Source: Nodosilinea sp. E11 (GTDB lineage: Bacteria > Cyanobacteriota > Cyanobacteriia > Phormidesmidales > Phormidesmidaceae). From it: a DNA stretch of 64,000 bases. A program made the translations under genes and the position numbers. The stretch's first letter is position 1, and every line of letters starts with the position of its first letter. The stretch is taken from the NCBI RefSeq assembly GCF_032813545.1, contig NZ_CP136520.1:5202001-5266000 (forward strand). The letters are read 5' to 3'. The notes under the pieces are model-generated. The model was given only the letters and a program-made list of their open reading frames with translations, searched no databases and was not told the DNA's origin. Below, in pieces: positions 43,242 through 53,702 of the stretch.

Positions 43242-44495
43242 ATGCTGAATATGACGTGGGAATTCAAGCTAGAGCCAACTGCCGAGCAGGTTTCAGGGAT
43301 TGAGGACATCCTAGATGTGTGTCGCAATGTCTGGAACTTTGCGCTGCGGGAACGTAAAGACTGGCTGGATTCTCGCAAGTCTCCGGTAAATGCATGTTCG
43401 ATTCGGCAGGAGTTTATTCTGCCAGTCGATGCACCATTTCCTAACTATGCTCGTCAGTGCAAGTCGCTGACGGCAGCGAAAGCGGCATTCCCCCGGCTCA
43501 AGACTGTCAACGCCCAGGTCCTCCAGCAGGTCATTAGAAAGCTGGAAGCCTCCTGGGAGTCGTGGCGGTTGAAGCGGTCGGGGTTCCCTCGGTTCAAAAA
43601 GCCAAACCGGATGCGGTCTTTTTCTTTCCCTCAGATGCTCAAGCACTGCATCACACCAGCGGGGATTAAGCTGCCTCAACTAGGGTTGGTGAAGGTGCGC
43701 TGGTCGCGGGAGATCCCGGACCGCTTCGAGGTGAAACAGGCCCGGATCGTCCGCAAGGCATCGGGCTATTTCGTCATGCTTAGCCTCCAGGCTGATGTTG
43801 CTATTCCCGCCACGATGCCCCATGGACATCCGGTGGGGATTGATGTTGGACTGGAATACTTTCTCTCAACGTCTGATGGAGAGCAGGTCAAGCGACCTCG
43901 CTTTTTCAATGAACTGCACCGCAAGCTGAAATTGCTGCAACGCAGGTTAAAGAGGAAGCAGAAGGGGTCAGCTCACTGGCTGAAGCTCCAGAAGAGGATT
44001 GGGAGAGTCCATCAACGCATTGCCGACACGCGCAAAGACTGGCATTTTAAGCTGGCTTATCACCTCTGTGACGAGGCAGGGATGGTGTTTGTCGAAGATC
44101 TCGACTTCCGCATCATGGCCAAAGGGATGCTGGGTAAGCACATGCTAGACGCTGGGCTGGGTCAATTTACGAACCAAGTCCTGCCCTGGGTGTGCGTTAA
44201 GCGCGATGTGTTTTACGGCAAGGTTGAGGCACGGGGCACTAGCCAAGAGTGTCCTGATTGCAGGGCAGAGGTACGCAAAGACCTCTCAACCCGGATTCAT
44301 CACTGCCACAACTGCGGGTCAATTAAGCCCCGTGATGTGGCAGCGGCTCAAGTTATTTCTGCCCGTGGGCAACGGGTGGTCGAAATTGCCTGTGGAGTCG
44401 AGGCGGCGGGGGCTGAGGTCACTCAGTCTAGCTGGCTGGCTGTGAAGCAGGAAATCTTTGGGGCGACTCAAGGAATCACCACCCATATCGCCTAG
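43242..44495 (+). CDS. tnpB: TnpB, RNA-guided nuclease of an IS200/IS605-family element
   Basis: The 417-residue protein is full length. The RuvC residues are present: Asp201 in GIDVGLEYF, Glu285 in MVFVEDLDF and Asp365 in KPRDVAAAQ. The zinc finger has Cys337, Cys340, Cys355 and Cys358. TnpB is an RNA-guided DNA nuclease; its guide (omega RNA) normally overlaps the 3' end of the gene. No tnpA is nearby, so the element cannot move alone. Hairpins lie at both ends (43201-43228 and 44477-44508). It sits tail to tail with futA, 19 bp apart. Confidence 0.95.
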   Translation: MLNMTWEFKLEPTAEQVSGIEDILDVCRNVWNFALRERKDWLDSRKSPVNACSIRQEFILPVDAPFPNYARQCKSLTAAKAAFPRLKTVNAQVLQQVIRKLEASWESWRLKRSGFPRFKKPNRMRSFSFPQMLKHCITPAGIKLPQLGLVKVRWSREIPDRFEVKQARIVRKASGYFVMLSLQADVAIPATMPHGHPVGIDVGLEYFLSTSDGEQVKRPRFFNELHRKLKLLQRRLKRKQKGSAHWLKLQKRIGRVHQRIADTRKDWHFKLAYHLCDEAGMVFVEDLDFRIMAKGMLGKHMLDAGLGQFTNQVLPWVCVKRDVFYGKVEARGTSQECPDCRAEVRKDLSTRIHHCHNCGSIKPRDVAAAQVISARGQRVVEIACGVEAAGAEVTQSSWLAVKQEIFGATQGITTHIA

Positions 44496-46828: not shown

Positions 46829-48184
46829 ATGGCTGTGCACCCTGCTATGTTGTCTTGGCTGGCAATGCCCCTCGGTGTGCTTTCGGTACTGTTGGGCGTG
46901 AGAGACCCCCTGCCCCTGCATGTGTCTGGGCTAAACCCCGCTGCCCTACAGGTGCAGTGGCAGTCGCCGTGGATAGAGGGGTTGGCCCGCGACCCGGTGG
47001 TCGATGCGATCGTGGCTCAGTACGTAGAAGGGCTGCGGCGGCAGGGGTGGTCGGTGCCCGACCAGGGTATTTGGATTCAGGTGGGGCAGCGCGTGATTAC
47101 TCAGCACCAGGGCGATGTGCTGATGCCCGCCGCCTCGTTGACGAAGCTGGCGACGACGCTAGCGGCTCTAGAGACCTGGCCCCTTGACCACCGTTTTGAA
47201 ACCCTGGTGGGCCTAAATGGCACCGTAGAAAATGGCGTGCTCAACGGCGATCTGGTGATTCAGGGCGGCGGTGACCCGCTGTTTGTCTGGGAGGAGGGCA
47301 TTGTGCTGGCCAACCGTCTGCAAACCCTGGGCATTCAACGGGTGACGGGGGATGTGTTGGTGACAGGCCCGTTCACCATGAATTTTGAGGAAGATCTCAA
47401 CGGTTCGCTCAGGGCGCTCAAGCAGGTGATGTCGGCTAGCACCTGGACCTGGCAAACGCGCCAGGCCTACGGCACCCTGCCCCCTGGCACGGCTCAACCG
47501 GCTCTTCAAATTGATGGTGGTGCCCGGTGGGTACCGCCCGCCGACCTCAACAATGTAGCGGTGAATTGGGTGGTGCGGCACCAGTCGCTACCGCTGGTGG
47601 CTATTCTCAAGGCAATGAATATCTACAGCAACAATGTGATGTCGGAGCTGGTGGCCGACCTGGCGGGCGGGCCGGGGCAGGTGATGACTAAGGCCACTGC
47701 CGCCGCCGATCTGCCCGCTGGCGAAATTAGTTTGGCCAATGGGTCGGGCCTGGGCACCAATAACCAGATGTCGGCGCGGGTAGCGGTGGCCCTGACCGTA
47801 GCCATACAGAATCAACTCAACGCCCAGGGCTACTCGATCGCCGATGTGCTGCCGGTGGCAGGAGAAGACACGGGCACCTTAATCGATCGTCGCATTCCGG
47901 CGACAGCGGCCGTCAAAACGGGCACCCTAGCCGAGGTCAGCGCCCTGGCGGGGATGGTGCCCACTGCCGAGCGGGGGCCGGTGTGGTTTGCCATTATTAA
48001 TAAGGGCTGGGCTCTTCCCGATCTGCGGGTGCAGCAAGACCAGCTGTTGCAGGCGATTCAGGCCCACTGGGGAATCGCCGATGCGCCCCCCGAGATGCGC
48101 ACTAAGGTCCGTATGCAGACCGGGCCGTTTCGCTACGGCGACCCTAGCCGCAATCAGGTGACCCGAGAGGTGGCGTCGGAGTAG
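46829..48184 (+). CDS. dacB: D-alanyl-D-alanine carboxypeptidase, S13/PBP4 family
   Basis: The enzyme trims or cleaves peptidoglycan stem peptides in the periplasm. The 451-residue protein has the serine motif ASLTK (Ser103, Lys106), SNN in NIYSNNVMSEL and KTG in AVKTGTL, in that order. The N-terminal hydrophobic stretch (about residues 7-24) acts as signal or anchor. The canonical domain II insertion between SxxK and SxN is present but short. The stop lies within the 3' end of the convergent LpxB-related gene (31-bp overlap). Confidence 0.92.
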   Translation: MAVHPAMLSWLAMPLGVLSVLLGVRDPLPLHVSGLNPAALQVQWQSPWIEGLARDPVVDAIVAQYVEGLRRQGWSVPDQGIWIQVGQRVITQHQGDVLMPAASLTKLATTLAALETWPLDHRFETLVGLNGTVENGVLNGDLVIQGGGDPLFVWEEGIVLANRLQTLGIQRVTGDVLVTGPFTMNFEEDLNGSLRALKQVMSASTWTWQTRQAYGTLPPGTAQPALQIDGGARWVPPADLNNVAVNWVVRHQSLPLVAILKAMNIYSNNVMSELVADLAGGPGQVMTKATAAADLPAGEISLANGSGLGTNNQMSARVAVALTVAIQNQLNAQGYSIADVLPVAGEDTGTLIDRRIPATAAVKTGTLAEVSALAGMVPTAERGPVWFAIINKGWALPDLRVQQDQLLQAIQAHWGIADAPPEMRTKVRMQTGPFRYGDPSRNQVTREVASE

Positions 48185-49431
48185 GGCGGCTGGGCATAGT
48201 GCTGGTGGAGTACTGTGGCGATCGCACGGGCTGCTCCCGGCTGACCCATGCGGCGGCGACCATTCTCGACAATGCGCTGGAGCCGGGGGCCATCGGCCAA
48301 ACAGGTTTGCAGGGCCGCCCCGGCCTCGTGGGGCTGGCTGAGCAATATCACTGACGGGCCGAGCAACCGCGACTGGGCTTCGGCAAAGGCGTCGGTAAAC
48401 TGGGGCCCAGGGCCAGGGAAGGTGACGACGGGCTTGCCCAAGCCCACCGCCTGTTCGGTGGCGGTACCAGCGGTGGCCAGGGCGGCATCGGCCAGGTGCA
48501 GGCATTCGGCAAAGGCATTGGTGGTGAGCACCAGCACGCCGCTGTTGCCCTGACTCCCCTGGCGCTGAAAGGTTGGAAGCTCACCCACTACAGGCTGCCA
48601 GCCCGCATCGAGCAAGCCATCTTTAAAGGCCGCCAGGTTGAGGGAGGGAGACAGAGCAGCCAGCAAGCGAATTTGCCGATTGCCAAAGGTCTCCATCACC
48701 GAGGCGATCGCACCGATCATCCGCTGCCAGTTGTCAAAGGCCTCGGGGGCGCGGGAGCCGGGTAGCAGCGCCAGGGTGAGCACCGCCGGGGCCGGGGCAA
48801 AGGTCGCAGTGAGCCGAGCCAGCTTGTCGGCGCGGGTTTCCAAATCATCCATCATCGGGTTGCCGGGGTAGAGGGCGGGCACCCCTTTCCTTTGCAAAAA
48901 ATCGGTGGTGAGCTGGTCGCGGGCAAAGACTCCTTGGCAGCGGGGGTGGGCCATCAACCACCGCTCCCAGGGCACGTAGACCGAGCCCGACCAGCCCTCC
49001 AGCGGGGGGCGACCGGGCAGGCGCTGGGTTTCATCGCGCAGGTAATACTCTGATTTGGCCGTGCCGATAAAGCTGTACTCAGCCCCACTTTGCCAGGCGA
49101 TCGCCAGGGGCACAATGTCGCCCACCGCCAAAATTTTGCCGCCGCTTTTGGCCCACTGGCGGGCGGTTTTGAGCTGGGCTAGGGTGAGCCCCACCAACCC
49201 CCCCCGAACATCGCGCCACAGCTGGTCGCGATCCATATAGATAAAGCCGCCGGAGGGCATAGCCTGGGTCGGGCCATGGATGGCAATGCCCGCCTTCTCG
49301 TAGGCCCTGCCTTCGCCCACAATGGGTAGGGCGGCGAGACTGGGCGCACCGGGCAACTGACGCAGTTGTTTCAAAATGCGAACCGCAATGCCGTCTTCGC
49401 CATGGCCATTGCTGATGCAGAGTAGCTTCAT
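48154..49431 (-). CDS. Lipid-A-disaccharide synthase-related protein
   Basis: The 425-residue protein has an LpxB-like GT-B layout: LCISNGHGEDGIAVRIL at the N-terminus, ILAVGDIVPLAIAW, ALYPGNPMMDDL, LLPGSRAPEAF and TAGTATEQAVGLGKPVV with FPGPGPQF. The SNGHGEDG variant defines the cyanobacterial related family, distinct from true LpxB. A glycosyltransferase function is likely; acceptor and donor are unknown. It overlaps dacB convergently by 31 bp and follows the rhodopsin gene after 66 bp on the same strand. Confidence 0.9.
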   Translation of the reverse strand: MKLLCISNGHGEDGIAVRILKQLRQLPGAPSLAALPIVGEGRAYEKAGIAIHGPTQAMPSGGFIYMDRDQLWRDVRGGLVGLTLAQLKTARQWAKSGGKILAVGDIVPLAIAWQSGAEYSFIGTAKSEYYLRDETQRLPGRPPLEGWSGSVYVPWERWLMAHPRCQGVFARDQLTTDFLQRKGVPALYPGNPMMDDLETRADKLARLTATFAPAPAVLTLALLPGSRAPEAFDNWQRMIGAIASVMETFGNRQIRLLAALSPSLNLAAFKDGLLDAGWQPVVGELPTFQRQGSQGNSGVLVLTTNAFAECLHLADAALATAGTATEQAVGLGKPVVTFPGPGPQFTDAFAEAQSRLLGPSVILLSQPHEAGAALQTCLADGPRLQRIVENGRRRMGQPGAARAIATVLHQHYAQPPYSDATSRVT

Positions 49432-49497: not shown

Positions 49498-50289
49498 TCA
49501 CTGATTCACCGGCCCGCGCCGATATTTTTTAAACCGCTGGCCCCGGCCTAAGCGCTTTAGCAGATCGCCCACAACGCGATCGCCGCCGGTTTGTCGATAG
49601 GCAGAAGACTCATCTTTAAGATTACGCAACCCGTGAAGATCGAAAAAGCTAAAGCCCACCTTAGAGAAAAACGGCAGCACACAAAACAGCAGTGTGTCCA
49701 TGTCTTGATTAATTAATCCCAGCCCTGAAGGACCAATAATCCAAACAACAGGATAGCCAATCCATAGCACCGTAAAGTAGGTTAAAAGGCTGTCATAAAA
49801 ATTCGATAACTCTGGCCCCTGTTCACGGGTTTTGGCCCGCATTGGTCCCCAAATGCCCCACATTACCACCAAGAAAGCGCCAACCCCGCAGAAATACCAA
49901 AGGTAGCGAATTTCTGGTGTCGTAGACAGATCGGCAACTAACCCGGTGACCACGACTACCACCTGAGTCCCCATCAATGAGCCAATCATCACCCAGTCTT
50001 TGGCCATGCGGTGCATCGCGGTTAGACCCAGGGCGAGCAGCAGTAACGGCGTGGTGACGACCCAGTCGATATAGCGGGCGTAGTGGGCCAACTGCCCCGC
50101 AATTTCTAACTTGCCCTGGTCAACGGCCATCGCCATATAGGCTAGACCCGACCAAATGGGGATAAAGGTCGCGATCGCATATTCATAGCGCGGCACCCCC
50201 TGGGGGTTGCGACTTAATATCAAAAAATAACTGGCCCCAGCGATCATGCCGACTACATAAATCCAGTGAAGTAGAACTTGAAAGGTCAT
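49498..50289 (-). CDS. Sensory rhodopsin of the Anabaena sensory rhodopsin (ASR) type
   Basis: The 263-residue seven-helix protein keeps ASR numbering throughout. Counter-ion Asp75 and Thr79 are in RYIDWVVTTP, the retinal-binding lysine is Lys210 in PFFSKVGFSF, and proline sits at 206 (bacteriorhodopsin Asp212 position). Asp217 is in FDLHGLRNL, with Glu36 and the tail RQTGGDR also shared. Position 86 (proton donor Asp96 in pumps) is Ala instead of the Ser of ASR, so a pump role is unlikely. ASR signals through a soluble transducer; no such gene is adjacent. TAAAGGA precedes the ATG. Confidence 0.95.
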   Translation of the reverse strand: MTFQVLLHWIYVVGMIAGASYFLILSRNPQGVPRYEYAIATFIPIWSGLAYMAMAVDQGKLEIAGQLAHYARYIDWVVTTPLLLLALGLTAMHRMAKDWVMIGSLMGTQVVVVVTGLVADLSTTPEIRYLWYFCGVGAFLVVMWGIWGPMRAKTREQGPELSNFYDSLLTYFTVLWIGYPVVWIIGPSGLGLINQDMDTLLFCVLPFFSKVGFSFFDLHGLRNLKDESSAYRQTGGDRVVGDLLKRLGRGQRFKKYRRGPVNQ

Positions 50290-50615
50290 AATTAGTCCTT
50301 TAGGGGCTTATGTTTTTAAGAAAAACTGTTTAAATCAAAATTTTTAATACAAAGCGCTGCTTAGCTTAATCACGTATGTTTATGAGCACAGCATCTAGCA
50401 AATTAAAAAATACGTGACCCCCCTAGGGGTAGAGATAGAGATGGGGCGAACCCGTGGTTGAGTGAACCAGCCGGTGCCCACCCCTACCGGAAACCCGATT
50501 AACCCACCCCTGCCCCTCCCAGGAGGGGATGCCGAAGCCCGAAACCCGATTAACCCACCCCTGCCCCTCCCAGGAGGGGATGCCGAAACCTGAAACCTGA
50601 AACTCGGGTTACCTG
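50290..50615. other. Gap between the RND gene and the rhodopsin gene with a tandem repeat
   Basis: The part next to the rhodopsin (50290-50440) is AT-rich and should contain its promoter. The part next to the RND stop holds the duplicated 47-bp hairpin units. A palindrome CCCCTAGGGG lies near 50421. Confidence 0.55.
50490..50587. repeat. Direct duplication of a 47-bp hairpin unit
   Basis: Two identical 47-bp copies (50490-50536 and 50541-50587) are spaced by 4 bp. Each starts GAAACCCGATTAACCC and contains the inverted repeat CCCCTCC-CA-GGAGGGG. They lie just downstream of the RND gene stop and may end its transcript. Confidence 0.9.
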
Positions 50616-53600
50616 CTAAATCGGCAGAGCTGACTTTGCCGAGGCCACGATTCTAGGGCGGCGGTAGCTCATCAGCCGATAGGCCGAGGGAATGTAGTAG
50701 AGGGCCAGCAGCGTTGCGCCGCCGAGGCCGCCTGCGATCGCGATCGCCAGCGGTGGCCAAAAGCCAGTGGGGTCGAGCATTAGCGGCACAAAGCCAATAA
50801 TGGTCGTCACCGTGGTGGCAATCACATGGCGGGTGGCGTGAAACACCACATCTTCTACCGCTTGGGGGTGACCCAGCTTGGCCTCGGGGTGTTCCCGTAG
50901 CGCCGCCAGCACCACAATCGAGTCGTTGATCGCCAGACCAATCAGCCCCAGGGTGCCAAGAATGGCGGTGAAGCCAAAGATTGAACCAAACAGCTTGAGC
51001 GCCAGGGCGGCGAGGCCCACCGCCAGCACCGCCACCGACCCAATCAGCGCCGCCAGCCCAAAGGAGTTAAACGACAGCACCAGGGTCGCGGTCATCAAAA
51101 TGCCCAACACACCCACGGTGGAGAGCAAATTTCCTACCGCCGTTCCCCTGGCGTCGGCCTCGCCGCCGTACTCAATCCGGTAACCGGGGGGCAACTCAAA
51201 GCCCTGTTCATCTAGCCGAGCCTGAAAAGCGGCCAGCACCGTGCTGGGCAGCGCTCCGGCGGTGATGAAAGCCTGCACTGTATTGATCCGCTGGCCATTG
51301 CGGCGGCTGATGCTGGCGGTGTCGGGCACCAACGCTAGAGCGGCGATCGCATCGAGCGGCATCTGTCCCTGGGCGGTGACCATATCGAGGGCGGCGATCG
51401 CCCCCAGATCGCCCTGCTGTGCTCCCGGCACTCGCACCCGCACCGGAATGTCGCGGCTGCCGTCTAGCACTGAGCCGCCAGTTCTCCCATCGAGAGCGGC
51501 ATTCAGCTGGCTGGCGATCGCCTGGTTGTCGAGCCCCAGACGGCGGGCCTGGGCTTCATCCACCGTGAGGGCCAGCTTGGGCAAAGCCTCCGTTAGGGTG
51601 GCGCGGGTGTGCACCACGTCGGTAACTTGGGCCAGCTCAGCGCGCAGGCGATCGCCCAGGTCTCGTAGCCCCACCAAATCTGCGCCGTAGACCCGCAGCT
51701 CAATCGGCGCGTCGAAGGGTGGCCCCTGCTCTAGCTGCTTCACCAGCACCTGGGCCTGGGGAAAGGCGGCATCTAGCTCCCCTTGCAGTGCCTGGATCGT
51801 TTCTCTCAAGTGATCGGTGCTCGCCAGTTGCACAATGCCCTGGGCGTAGTTCTGGGCATTGCGGCGGTTGTCGAGCACGTTGTAGAAAAAGGGTGGCGCG
51901 CTGCGGCCCATAAACCAGTGGATATCCTCAACGTCGGGATGCTGAAGCGCCAGTTCTCTCGCCTGGCGAATCTGAGTCTGGGTAGCAGCAAGGGACGTCT
52001 GAGTGGGCAACTCAAACTCAATTTGAAACTGGTTGCGGTTGGTCGGCGGAAAGAATTGCTGGGGCAGGGTGGCAAACACCGCAAAGCCCATCACTGGCAG
52101 CATGAGCGATAGGCCAACCCCTAACCAGGGCCGCCGAAACGCTGTCCCTAGTGTCCACCGATAGCCATTGGCCAGGGCGTCGTTGGCAAAGCCGGAGTGC
52201 CACCAGCCCCAGCGCAAGGGCAGCGGGTTCCACTGGTGCAGCCGCCCTACCAGCGACACAATCACCGTCAGCGACAGGGCCAGCGAACTCAGCAGCGCCA
52301 AAATTACCGTCAGGCCAATGGTGCCGATAAACTCGCCCACGCCCCCTGGCGACAGGGCAATGGGAATAAAGGCCAGCACTGTCGTTAGGGTCGAAGCCAG
52401 CAGCGGCACCAGCAAATGGCGCACGGTCTCGGCCACCGCCTCGCCCGGCAAAATACCCTGGCGCAGCCGCCCCTGCACCTCGTCTACCACAATGATGGCG
52501 TTGTCGATCAGCAGCCCCAGGGCGATAATCACCCCCGTCACCGACATTTGGTGCAGCGGTATCCCCAGCACCTTCATGGTGCCAAACACCATCAGTGTCG
52601 TGAGCGGCAGGGCCAGCCCTACCAGCAGGGCCGACTTCCAGCCCAAAATTAGCAGCGAGACGCCAATCACCAGCAGCGAACCCAAAATTAGGTTGCTCAC
52701 CACCCCATTCAGCCGCTGCTGCACATACTGGCTCTGGTCGAGCACGATTTGCAGATCCAGCCCTGCCGGCAGCTCGGCGCGAAAAGCATCCAGCACTGTC
52801 TTCGCCTGCACGGCCCACTGGTCAACCCGCTGAGCCGACTCGACTTTGGCCGAGAGGGCGATCGCTCCATGCCCATTCACCAGGGCCAGATCGCTGGGCG
52901 GGTCTTGTACCGCTTTGGTAACGGTGGCGATGTCTCCCAGTCGCGCCACCTGGCCTTCGCCCCCCGCTGCGATTGGGATAGCGCGAATCTGCTCTAGGGT
53001 GCTGAGGCTGCTGTTCACCTCCAGCAGAAATTCCGTACTGTCGCTGCGAAACTGCCCCGCCGCCACCTTGGCATCGCTGGCGGCAATTTGCTGGGAGAGG
53101 GCCGCCGCTGACAGCCCCAGCCGCGACAGTTCCGTCATCGCTATATCTACCCGAATTTCTTCGTCGGGTTCGCCAAAGATCTCCACTGTCTCGGTGCCGG
53201 GAATCGCCCGCAGGCGATCTTCCAGCACCGCCGCCATCCGCCCCAAAATCGCGTAGTTGGGTGCGTCGTCCCGCGTCCAGGTGAGGCCCACGATCAGGGC
53301 GCTAGCCTTAGTCGAGCTGTCGGCGTACTCGGGCACCGTGGCCTCGGCGGGTAGCTCTGGCACCGCGTCATCTACCTTGCTGCGCACCTTGGCCCACACC
53401 GAGTCTACCTCGGCGATCGTGTCTTTGAGCTCGATGGTGATCACCGAAATGCCACTGCCCGAGGTCGATCGCAGCGACTCAATTTCCTCTAGCTCAAACA
53501 GCTGATCCTCGATCTTCTCCGTCACCAGGGTCTCGACCCGCTCCGGTGTTGCCCCCGGTAAGAATGTGGTGACACGGGCAAACCGCTGCACAATCTCCGG

Positions 53601-53702
53601 GTCTTCGAGGCGTGGCAGGGTGATAAACGCCGACAGCCCCCAGACGACGATCAGCACCAGAGTGAGCAAGAGAAGCTGGCGGTTGCGGTAGAAGAGGTTC
53701 AT
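50616..53702 (-). CDS. RND-family efflux transporter permease
   Basis: The 1028-residue protein has the duplicated AcrB layout: a first membrane helix, a large periplasmic loop, six helices, then a second half with the same order. Conserved parts are TLPRLEDPEI, RVETLVTEKIEDQL, ALGLLIDNAIIVVDEV (membrane Asp of the proton relay) and LIGLAINDSIVVLAAL. It works as a trimer with the adaptor encoded at 55323. The muramidase gene 53754-55166 lies between them; RND start and muramidase stop are 51 bp apart. Confidence 0.95.
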   Translation of the reverse strand: MNLFYRNRQLLLLTLVLIVVWGLSAFITLPRLEDPEIVQRFARVTTFLPGATPERVETLVTEKIEDQLFELEEIESLRSTSGSGISVITIELKDTIAEVDSVWAKVRSKVDDAVPELPAEATVPEYADSSTKASALIVGLTWTRDDAPNYAILGRMAAVLEDRLRAIPGTETVEIFGEPDEEIRVDIAMTELSRLGLSAAALSQQIAASDAKVAAGQFRSDSTEFLLEVNSSLSTLEQIRAIPIAAGGEGQVARLGDIATVTKAVQDPPSDLALVNGHGAIALSAKVESAQRVDQWAVQAKTVLDAFRAELPAGLDLQIVLDQSQYVQQRLNGVVSNLILGSLLVIGVSLLILGWKSALLVGLALPLTTLMVFGTMKVLGIPLHQMSVTGVIIALGLLIDNAIIVVDEVQGRLRQGILPGEAVAETVRHLLVPLLASTLTTVLAFIPIALSPGGVGEFIGTIGLTVILALLSSLALSLTVIVSLVGRLHQWNPLPLRWGWWHSGFANDALANGYRWTLGTAFRRPWLGVGLSLMLPVMGFAVFATLPQQFFPPTNRNQFQIEFELPTQTSLAATQTQIRQARELALQHPDVEDIHWFMGRSAPPFFYNVLDNRRNAQNYAQGIVQLASTDHLRETIQALQGELDAAFPQAQVLVKQLEQGPPFDAPIELRVYGADLVGLRDLGDRLRAELAQVTDVVHTRATLTEALPKLALTVDEAQARRLGLDNQAIASQLNAALDGRTGGSVLDGSRDIPVRVRVPGAQQGDLGAIAALDMVTAQGQMPLDAIAALALVPDTASISRRNGQRINTVQAFITAGALPSTVLAAFQARLDEQGFELPPGYRIEYGGEADARGTAVGNLLSTVGVLGILMTATLVLSFNSFGLAALIGSVAVLAVGLAALALKLFGSIFGFTAILGTLGLIGLAINDSIVVLAALREHPEAKLGHPQAVEDVVFHATRHVIATTVTTIIGFVPLMLDPTGFWPPLAIAIAGGLGGATLLALYYIPSAYRLMSYRRPRIVASAKSALPI

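Follow-up and report, generated by a model that had tools for sequence, protein, structure and literature searches.

An orphan xenorhodopsin of the cyanobacterial ASR branch in a Nodosilinea genome that lacks the transducer ASRT

We analyzed a rhodopsin gene of Nodosilinea sp. E11 and its surroundings in the window, by which we mean the whole stretch of 64,000 nucleotides under study. An open reading frame of 263 amino acids with an ATG start occupies positions 49498–50289 on the minus strand. The rhodopsin gene shares its strand with both flanking genes, one for a lipid-A-disaccharide synthase-related protein 66 bp downstream and one for an RND efflux permease 326 bp upstream. The first-pass annotation had described these flanks as an LpxB-related protein and an RND pump with no adjacent transducer, and no transducer gene was found near the locus. 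The features are as follows, with ASR standing for Anabaena sensory rhodopsin.

48154..49431, minus strand: lipid-A-disaccharide synthase-related protein (TIGR03492), downstream neighbour, from a profile match
49498..50289, minus strand: ASR-type (xenorhodopsin clade) rhodopsin gene, 263 aa, from PF01036, the ASR alignment and dN/dS
49501..49611, minus strand: long basic cytoplasmic C-tail, residues 227–263, with a QT-x-GDR stretch in common with ASR
49639..49641, minus strand: Asp217 codon, cytoplasmic carboxylate, from alignment (PMC5118547)
49660..49662, minus strand: Lys210 codon, retinal attachment site, from alignment to ASR
49963..49965, minus strand: Gln109 codon (Gln in ASR; Asp in BcXeR and PoXeR), from alignment
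50032..50034, minus strand: Ala86 codon GCC (Ser86 in ASR, Asp96 in bacteriorhodopsin), from sequence and alignment
50065..50067, minus strand: Asp75 codon, Schiff-base counterion position, from alignment to ASR
50290..50615, no strand: upstream intergenic region, its gene-proximal 130 bp AT-rich (31% GC), from base composition
50616..53702, minus strand: RND efflux permease, upstream neighbour, from a profile match

A scan of the region upstream of the rhodopsin gene for a sigma-70-type promoter gave no match, and neither did an Rfam scan of the locus. Between the RND and rhodopsin genes, at 50505–50580, CACCCCTGCCCCTCCCAGGAGGGGA occurs as two perfect copies 51 bp apart, with no further copies elsewhere in the window. 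Positions 43242–44495 hold a TnpB-type IS605 OrfB gene (417 aa, with a Cas12f1-like TNB domain), and on the opposite strand nearby is a gene for an extracellular solute-binding protein.

Among the xenorhodopsins, the encoded protein falls in the cyanobacterial ASR branch, of which it is an ordinary member. It matched the Bac_rhodopsin profile PF01036 (E = 2.8e-63), and its best match among solved structures was ASR itself (alr3165, PDB 1xio; E = 2.5e-115), the next structures after the ASR entries being the xenorhodopsin 7zmy/7zng. Identity to ASR is 67% over the aligned length, and residues 1–224, which span Lys210 and Asp217, align without a gap. In ASR numbering the key residues are E36, R72, D75, T79, A86, T90, Q109, W176, D198, P206, K210, S214, and D217; all of these except residue 86 are shared with ASR, from which the window protein differs in having Ala86 rather than Ser86 and Leu89 rather than Trp89. 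The first-pass identification of an ASR-type rhodopsin is thus confirmed, together with its gapless alignment through Lys210 and Asp217 and its D-T-A at positions 75/79/86 in place of the D-T-S of ASR.

Class assignment follows from these residues. The PF01036 match and the retinal-binding Lys210 of helix G are those of a microbial (type 1) rhodopsin. Pro206 replaces the helix G Asp212 of bacteriorhodopsin, the substitution by which Ugalde et al. 2011 defined the xenorhodopsin/ASR class (PMC3198991), and Ala86 leaves no carboxylic proton donor at the position of bacteriorhodopsin Asp96, as in that class. Gln109 and the long basic C-tail are traits of the cyanobacterial ASR branch; the tail, which ASR also has, carries a net charge of +7 over its last 39 residues, with eight Lys or Arg among the last 20, and 51 of 62 relatives have tails of at least 26 residues, all net positive. 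Assignment to the cyanorhodopsins or halorhodopsins was rejected on the basis of Pro206, Ala86, and the tree: the outward-pumping cyanorhodopsins carry an acidic residue as donor where bacteriorhodopsin has Asp96 (Glu85 in N2098R), together with Asp200 on helix G (PMC7541481), and at these places the window protein has Ala86 and Pro206.

Phylogeny, proposed as a check at first pass, gave the same placement. On the maximum-likelihood tree the window protein groups with its nearest relatives, G343 and G196 (support 100/100), inside the cyanobacterial set that contains ASR, and this whole branch stands apart from BcXeR, the xenorhodopsin of Bacillus coahuilensis (PDB 7zmy). The nearest named relative is G343, the metagenome assembly Leptolyngbya sp. 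DLM2.Bin27, with 82% identity over the whole protein; plasmid records held no close relative. Low dN/dS values, 0.12 against G343 and 0.08 against G196 (the latter with synonymous distance near saturation), indicate that the gene is maintained under purifying selection. The C-tail changes faster (0.19 and 0.37, respectively) than the membrane part (0.11 and 0.06). In some other genomes the ASR-type rhodopsin genes contain an in-frame stop (L053/L104 in G334, L150 in G509, and L154 in G547), and these copies are apparently decaying or mis-sequenced.

The rhodopsin gene has a GC content of 0.516 and a GC3 of 0.587, compared to a GC3 of 0.72–0.76 in neighbouring genes, and the genus holds three separate rhodopsin lineages on the tree. 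The low GC3 and the three lineages fit horizontal transfer within cyanobacteria, which has been reported for this clade (PMC11528372), and the GC3 contrast suggests that the donor was a less GC-rich cyanobacterium. Flanking genes differ again in G343 and G196. We rejected the LpxB-related (TIGR03492) and RND genes as rhodopsin partners because neither adjoins any other rhodopsin of the clade.

The assembly of the host genome (6.1 Mb in 7 contigs, 100% complete) allowed whole-genome searches for a second rhodopsin and for ASRT. The window gene is the sole rhodopsin of its genome, and the ASRT profile PF07100 had no match anywhere in it. Because nine other members of the genus did yield ASRT in the identical search, the negative result does not stem from a weak search. 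With no other rhodopsin and no ASRT, adjacent or elsewhere, the genome does not encode the two-protein ASR–ASRT system, and the window rhodopsin is a true orphan. This upholds the orphan claim of the first-pass annotation, which had proposed a genome-wide ASRT search as its check. Of the two explanations offered there, a transducer encoded elsewhere is not supported by the same search, and a partner that differs or is not needed stands. Two RPE65-type carotenoid cleavage oxygenases are encoded in the genome, making it probable that the host cell can synthesize retinal. With a complete genome that holds one ASR-type rhodopsin but lacks ASRT, the strain offers a clean natural case: whatever response to light the rhodopsin mediates there cannot depend on ASRT.

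Surveys of other genomes place this arrangement among the usual ones. Across a class-wide sample of 390 genomes, ASR-type rhodopsins (counted at about 48% identity or more) occurred in 40, ASRT in 17, and both in 8, and in none of the 390 were the two genes neighbours. Family f32, which we infer from genome size and content to be Nostocaceae-like, had rhodopsins in 22 and ASRT in 25 of its 218 genomes; the two genes were adjacent in four (G459, G558, G562, and G465) and 10–12 kb apart in two more. This positive control establishes that our method can detect the operon. Adjacent pairs were found in f32 only, where they account for 4 of the 22 genomes with the rhodopsin; two further families that we searched, both small, had none. 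The four side-by-side pairs are L118/L164, L127/L177, L128/L178, and L136/L181, the last being the G465 pair, in which only the C-terminal part of the rhodopsin copy is readable. The rhodopsins of these operons belong to the same clade as the window protein and have Thr or Ala at position 86 where it is covered, but the ASRT gene directly follows the rhodopsin there, whereas the window has none.

Rhodopsin and ASRT co-occurred above chance (Fisher's exact test, P = 7.5e-5 in the class sample and 0.006 in f32), but the test ignores relatedness, and we therefore claim neither dependence nor independence from it. Earlier work found no ASRT in the other xenorhodopsin genomes then known (Ugalde et al. 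2011; PMC3198991) and saw the ASR–ASRT linkage in Nostoc alone (De Souza et al. 2009; PMC2739507), a picture that the four additional operons widen slightly. The missing transducer, which had been singled out at first pass as a distinguishing trait, is not one: lack of an adjacent ASRT is the rule and has been reported as such since 2011 (PMC3198991). The ASR–ASRT operon is a minority arrangement, which corrects an assumption drawn from a single model protein. Signalling by ASR-type rhodopsins where ASRT is missing is a matter that extends beyond this window.

The same holds for Ala86, the other trait that had been singled out. Of 64 cyanobacterial ASR-type proteins, pooled from two samples, 39 had Ala at residue 86, 23 had Ser, and 2 had Thr, and a maximum-likelihood tree of 44 proteins requires seven or more changes there. 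Even paralogues within one genome differ at this position (Ser in G118, Ala in G118b). D75, P206, and K210 were invariant wherever covered among these proteins, D75 in all 64. The rhodopsins in operon with ASRT carry Ala86 (G558 and G562) or Thr86 (G459), so residue 86 is uninformative about the presence of the transducer; the inward pump BcXeR likewise has Ala86, which is thus compatible with pumping. Ala86 carries no special meaning, since Ser, Ala, and Thr all leave the protein without a cytoplasmic proton donor. We rejected it as a functional marker given the repeated changes on the tree, the ASRT-linked Ala86 rhodopsins, and the fact that Ala is the commonest residue. Ser86, correspondingly, is no signature of the sensory type, another assumption taken over from the one model protein. 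Both Ala86 and the missing transducer are typical of the family.

In other ASR-type loci we found a recurrent neighbour of a different kind. It is a small protein without a Pfam or NCBIfam match, here called c3: of the 36 ASR-type loci whose genomes encode it, 17 lie no more than 10 kb from it, where random placement would give 0.19. By the same 10-kb limit, c3 was near none of 13 loci of other rhodopsin types (about 31–38% identity to the query) in genomes that encode c3. The typical order is c3, then an RppA-like response regulator, then a kinase closest to RppB, as at L076:7362-9860. The regulator of G358 scored 254 bits against the NCBIfam RppA cut-off of 250, and the kinase beside c3 is most like RppB with a score under the RppB cut-off. 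The linkage state changed about six times on the tree. Draft contigs may hide linkage and related genomes are not independent, and we treat the association as a lead for these reasons. In one subclade with short tails, the c3 cluster further includes a P-type cation ATPase and a YflT-like stress protein, and the end of the c3 gene lies 26–74 bp from the convergent rhodopsin gene; the ATPase also adjoins the rhodopsin in three f32 genomes.

The clade of the window protein (its own genome, G343, and G196) shows no c3 linkage. The Nodosilinea genome does have a gene for a c3 homologue with 33% identity, arranged divergently with one for an RppA-like regulator and located 4.5 Mb from the rhodopsin, at G000:C7:737545-738881 (L108:7537-8882). 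This regulator scored 245.6 bits, just under the cut-off of 250, and no RppB-like kinase lies beside the pair. A broad proposal would be that cyanobacterial ASR-type rhodopsins in general work not with ASRT but with an RppA/RppB-like system and a membrane-anchored c3, linked to cation transport, in which case the window rhodopsin would use its unlinked c3 and RppA-like pair. We regard this generalization as speculative and unlikely, but a system that recurs beside related rhodopsins gives a testable alternative partner.

Two characterized inward proton pumps of the same clade bear on whether the window protein senses or transports. PoXeR of Parvularcula oceani has the equivalents of E36 and D217 and no known transducer, but differs in its DTL motif, in D108 at the Gln109 position, and in lacking the long Arg-rich tail (PMC5118547). 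BcXeR shares Ala86, Asp75, Asp217, and Pro206 with the window protein but is far more distant than ASR (209 bits versus 387); it has Ser79, Asp109, and Glu198, and its chain stops soon past the GLR motif. PoXeR numbering converts to that of ASR by adding one (E35/E36, D74/D75, D216/D217), which places D108 at ASR position 109. PoXeR needs D108 for full inward pumping, and its mutation lowers pumping (PMC5118547). An acidic residue at position 109, a trait derived from these mutants and from BcXeR rather than an accepted formal criterion, is absent from the window protein, which like ASR and 64 of 65 relatives has Gln; BcXeR has Asp. Gln109 and the long basic tail make the sequence look more like that of a photochromic sensor than that of an inward proton pump, although their correlation with function comes from two or three proteins with measured activity and is not proof. 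Among the close relatives of the window protein, function has been measured in ASR only, whose sensory role was inferred rather than established in vivo (PMC3198991).

We propose, with moderate confidence, that this ordinary ASR-branch rhodopsin signals photochromically without net pumping, its output passing through its tail or an unlinked partner rather than ASRT. Retinal, bound at Lys210 and probably made by the host's own carotenoid oxygenases, would alternate between its all-trans and 13-cis forms in response to light. The signal could then be relayed by protons moving on the cytoplasmic face (E36/D217) and by an altered state of the basic C-tail. Output could not run through ASRT, as the genome has none, which leaves the tail itself or an unlinked partner; the gene neighbourhoods of relatives make an RppA-like two-component regulator the best candidate for such a partner, a link that comes from other subclades than the window's. 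A more specific version would have the basic tail act directly on DNA, as was reportedly proposed for ASR in Anabaena by Irieda and colleagues in 2012. The tail is present, carries net positive charge, and keeps the QT-x-GDR stretch, and the lack of ASRT would suit such a route. Yet the tail sequence is loosely conserved, tails are short throughout one subclade, lipids or proteins could equally be ligands of a basic tail, and bringing a membrane-bound protein to promoters is mechanistically demanding, so that we find direct action on DNA distinctly unlikely.

Alternatively, the protein could pump protons inward under light, as PoXeR, BcXeR, and NsXeR do, with the cytoplasmic-side D217 taking up the Schiff-base proton and no transducer needed. 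The sequence allows pumping, since D217 is common to the true inward pumps; clade membership and E36 agree, BcXeR with Ser79 and Ala86 makes Ala86 compatible, and the gene stands alone with no conserved partner. However, no ion transport is shown by wild-type ASR, the nearest protein to have been studied (PMC5118547), position 109 is not acidic as it is in PoXeR and BcXeR, and the long basic tail is missing in PoXeR; we consider a pump unlikely. That the gene was recently acquired or is decaying, with no present role in the strain, would accord with its deviating GC and GC3, with flanks that even the nearest relatives do not share, and with the interrupted copies in some relatives. An intact frame, the dN/dS of 0.08–0.12, the retention of all functional residues, and orthologues in the nearest relatives of the same genus make this very improbable. 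Photochromic signalling independent of ASRT is the reading we favour.

Two genomes stood out among the relatives with respect to transport. G152 (L090) encodes the sole relative with Asp109; its protein has a short tail and forms the first branch after BcXeR, and it is a possible pump-like cyanobacterial member. A D217E substitution converts ASR into an inward proton transporter (PMC5118547), and G265 encodes two near-identical ASR-type rhodopsins (L050 and L084) with Glu217, the natural counterpart of that mutant. By this analogy, the two would be good candidates for ASR-branch rhodopsins that naturally transport inward.
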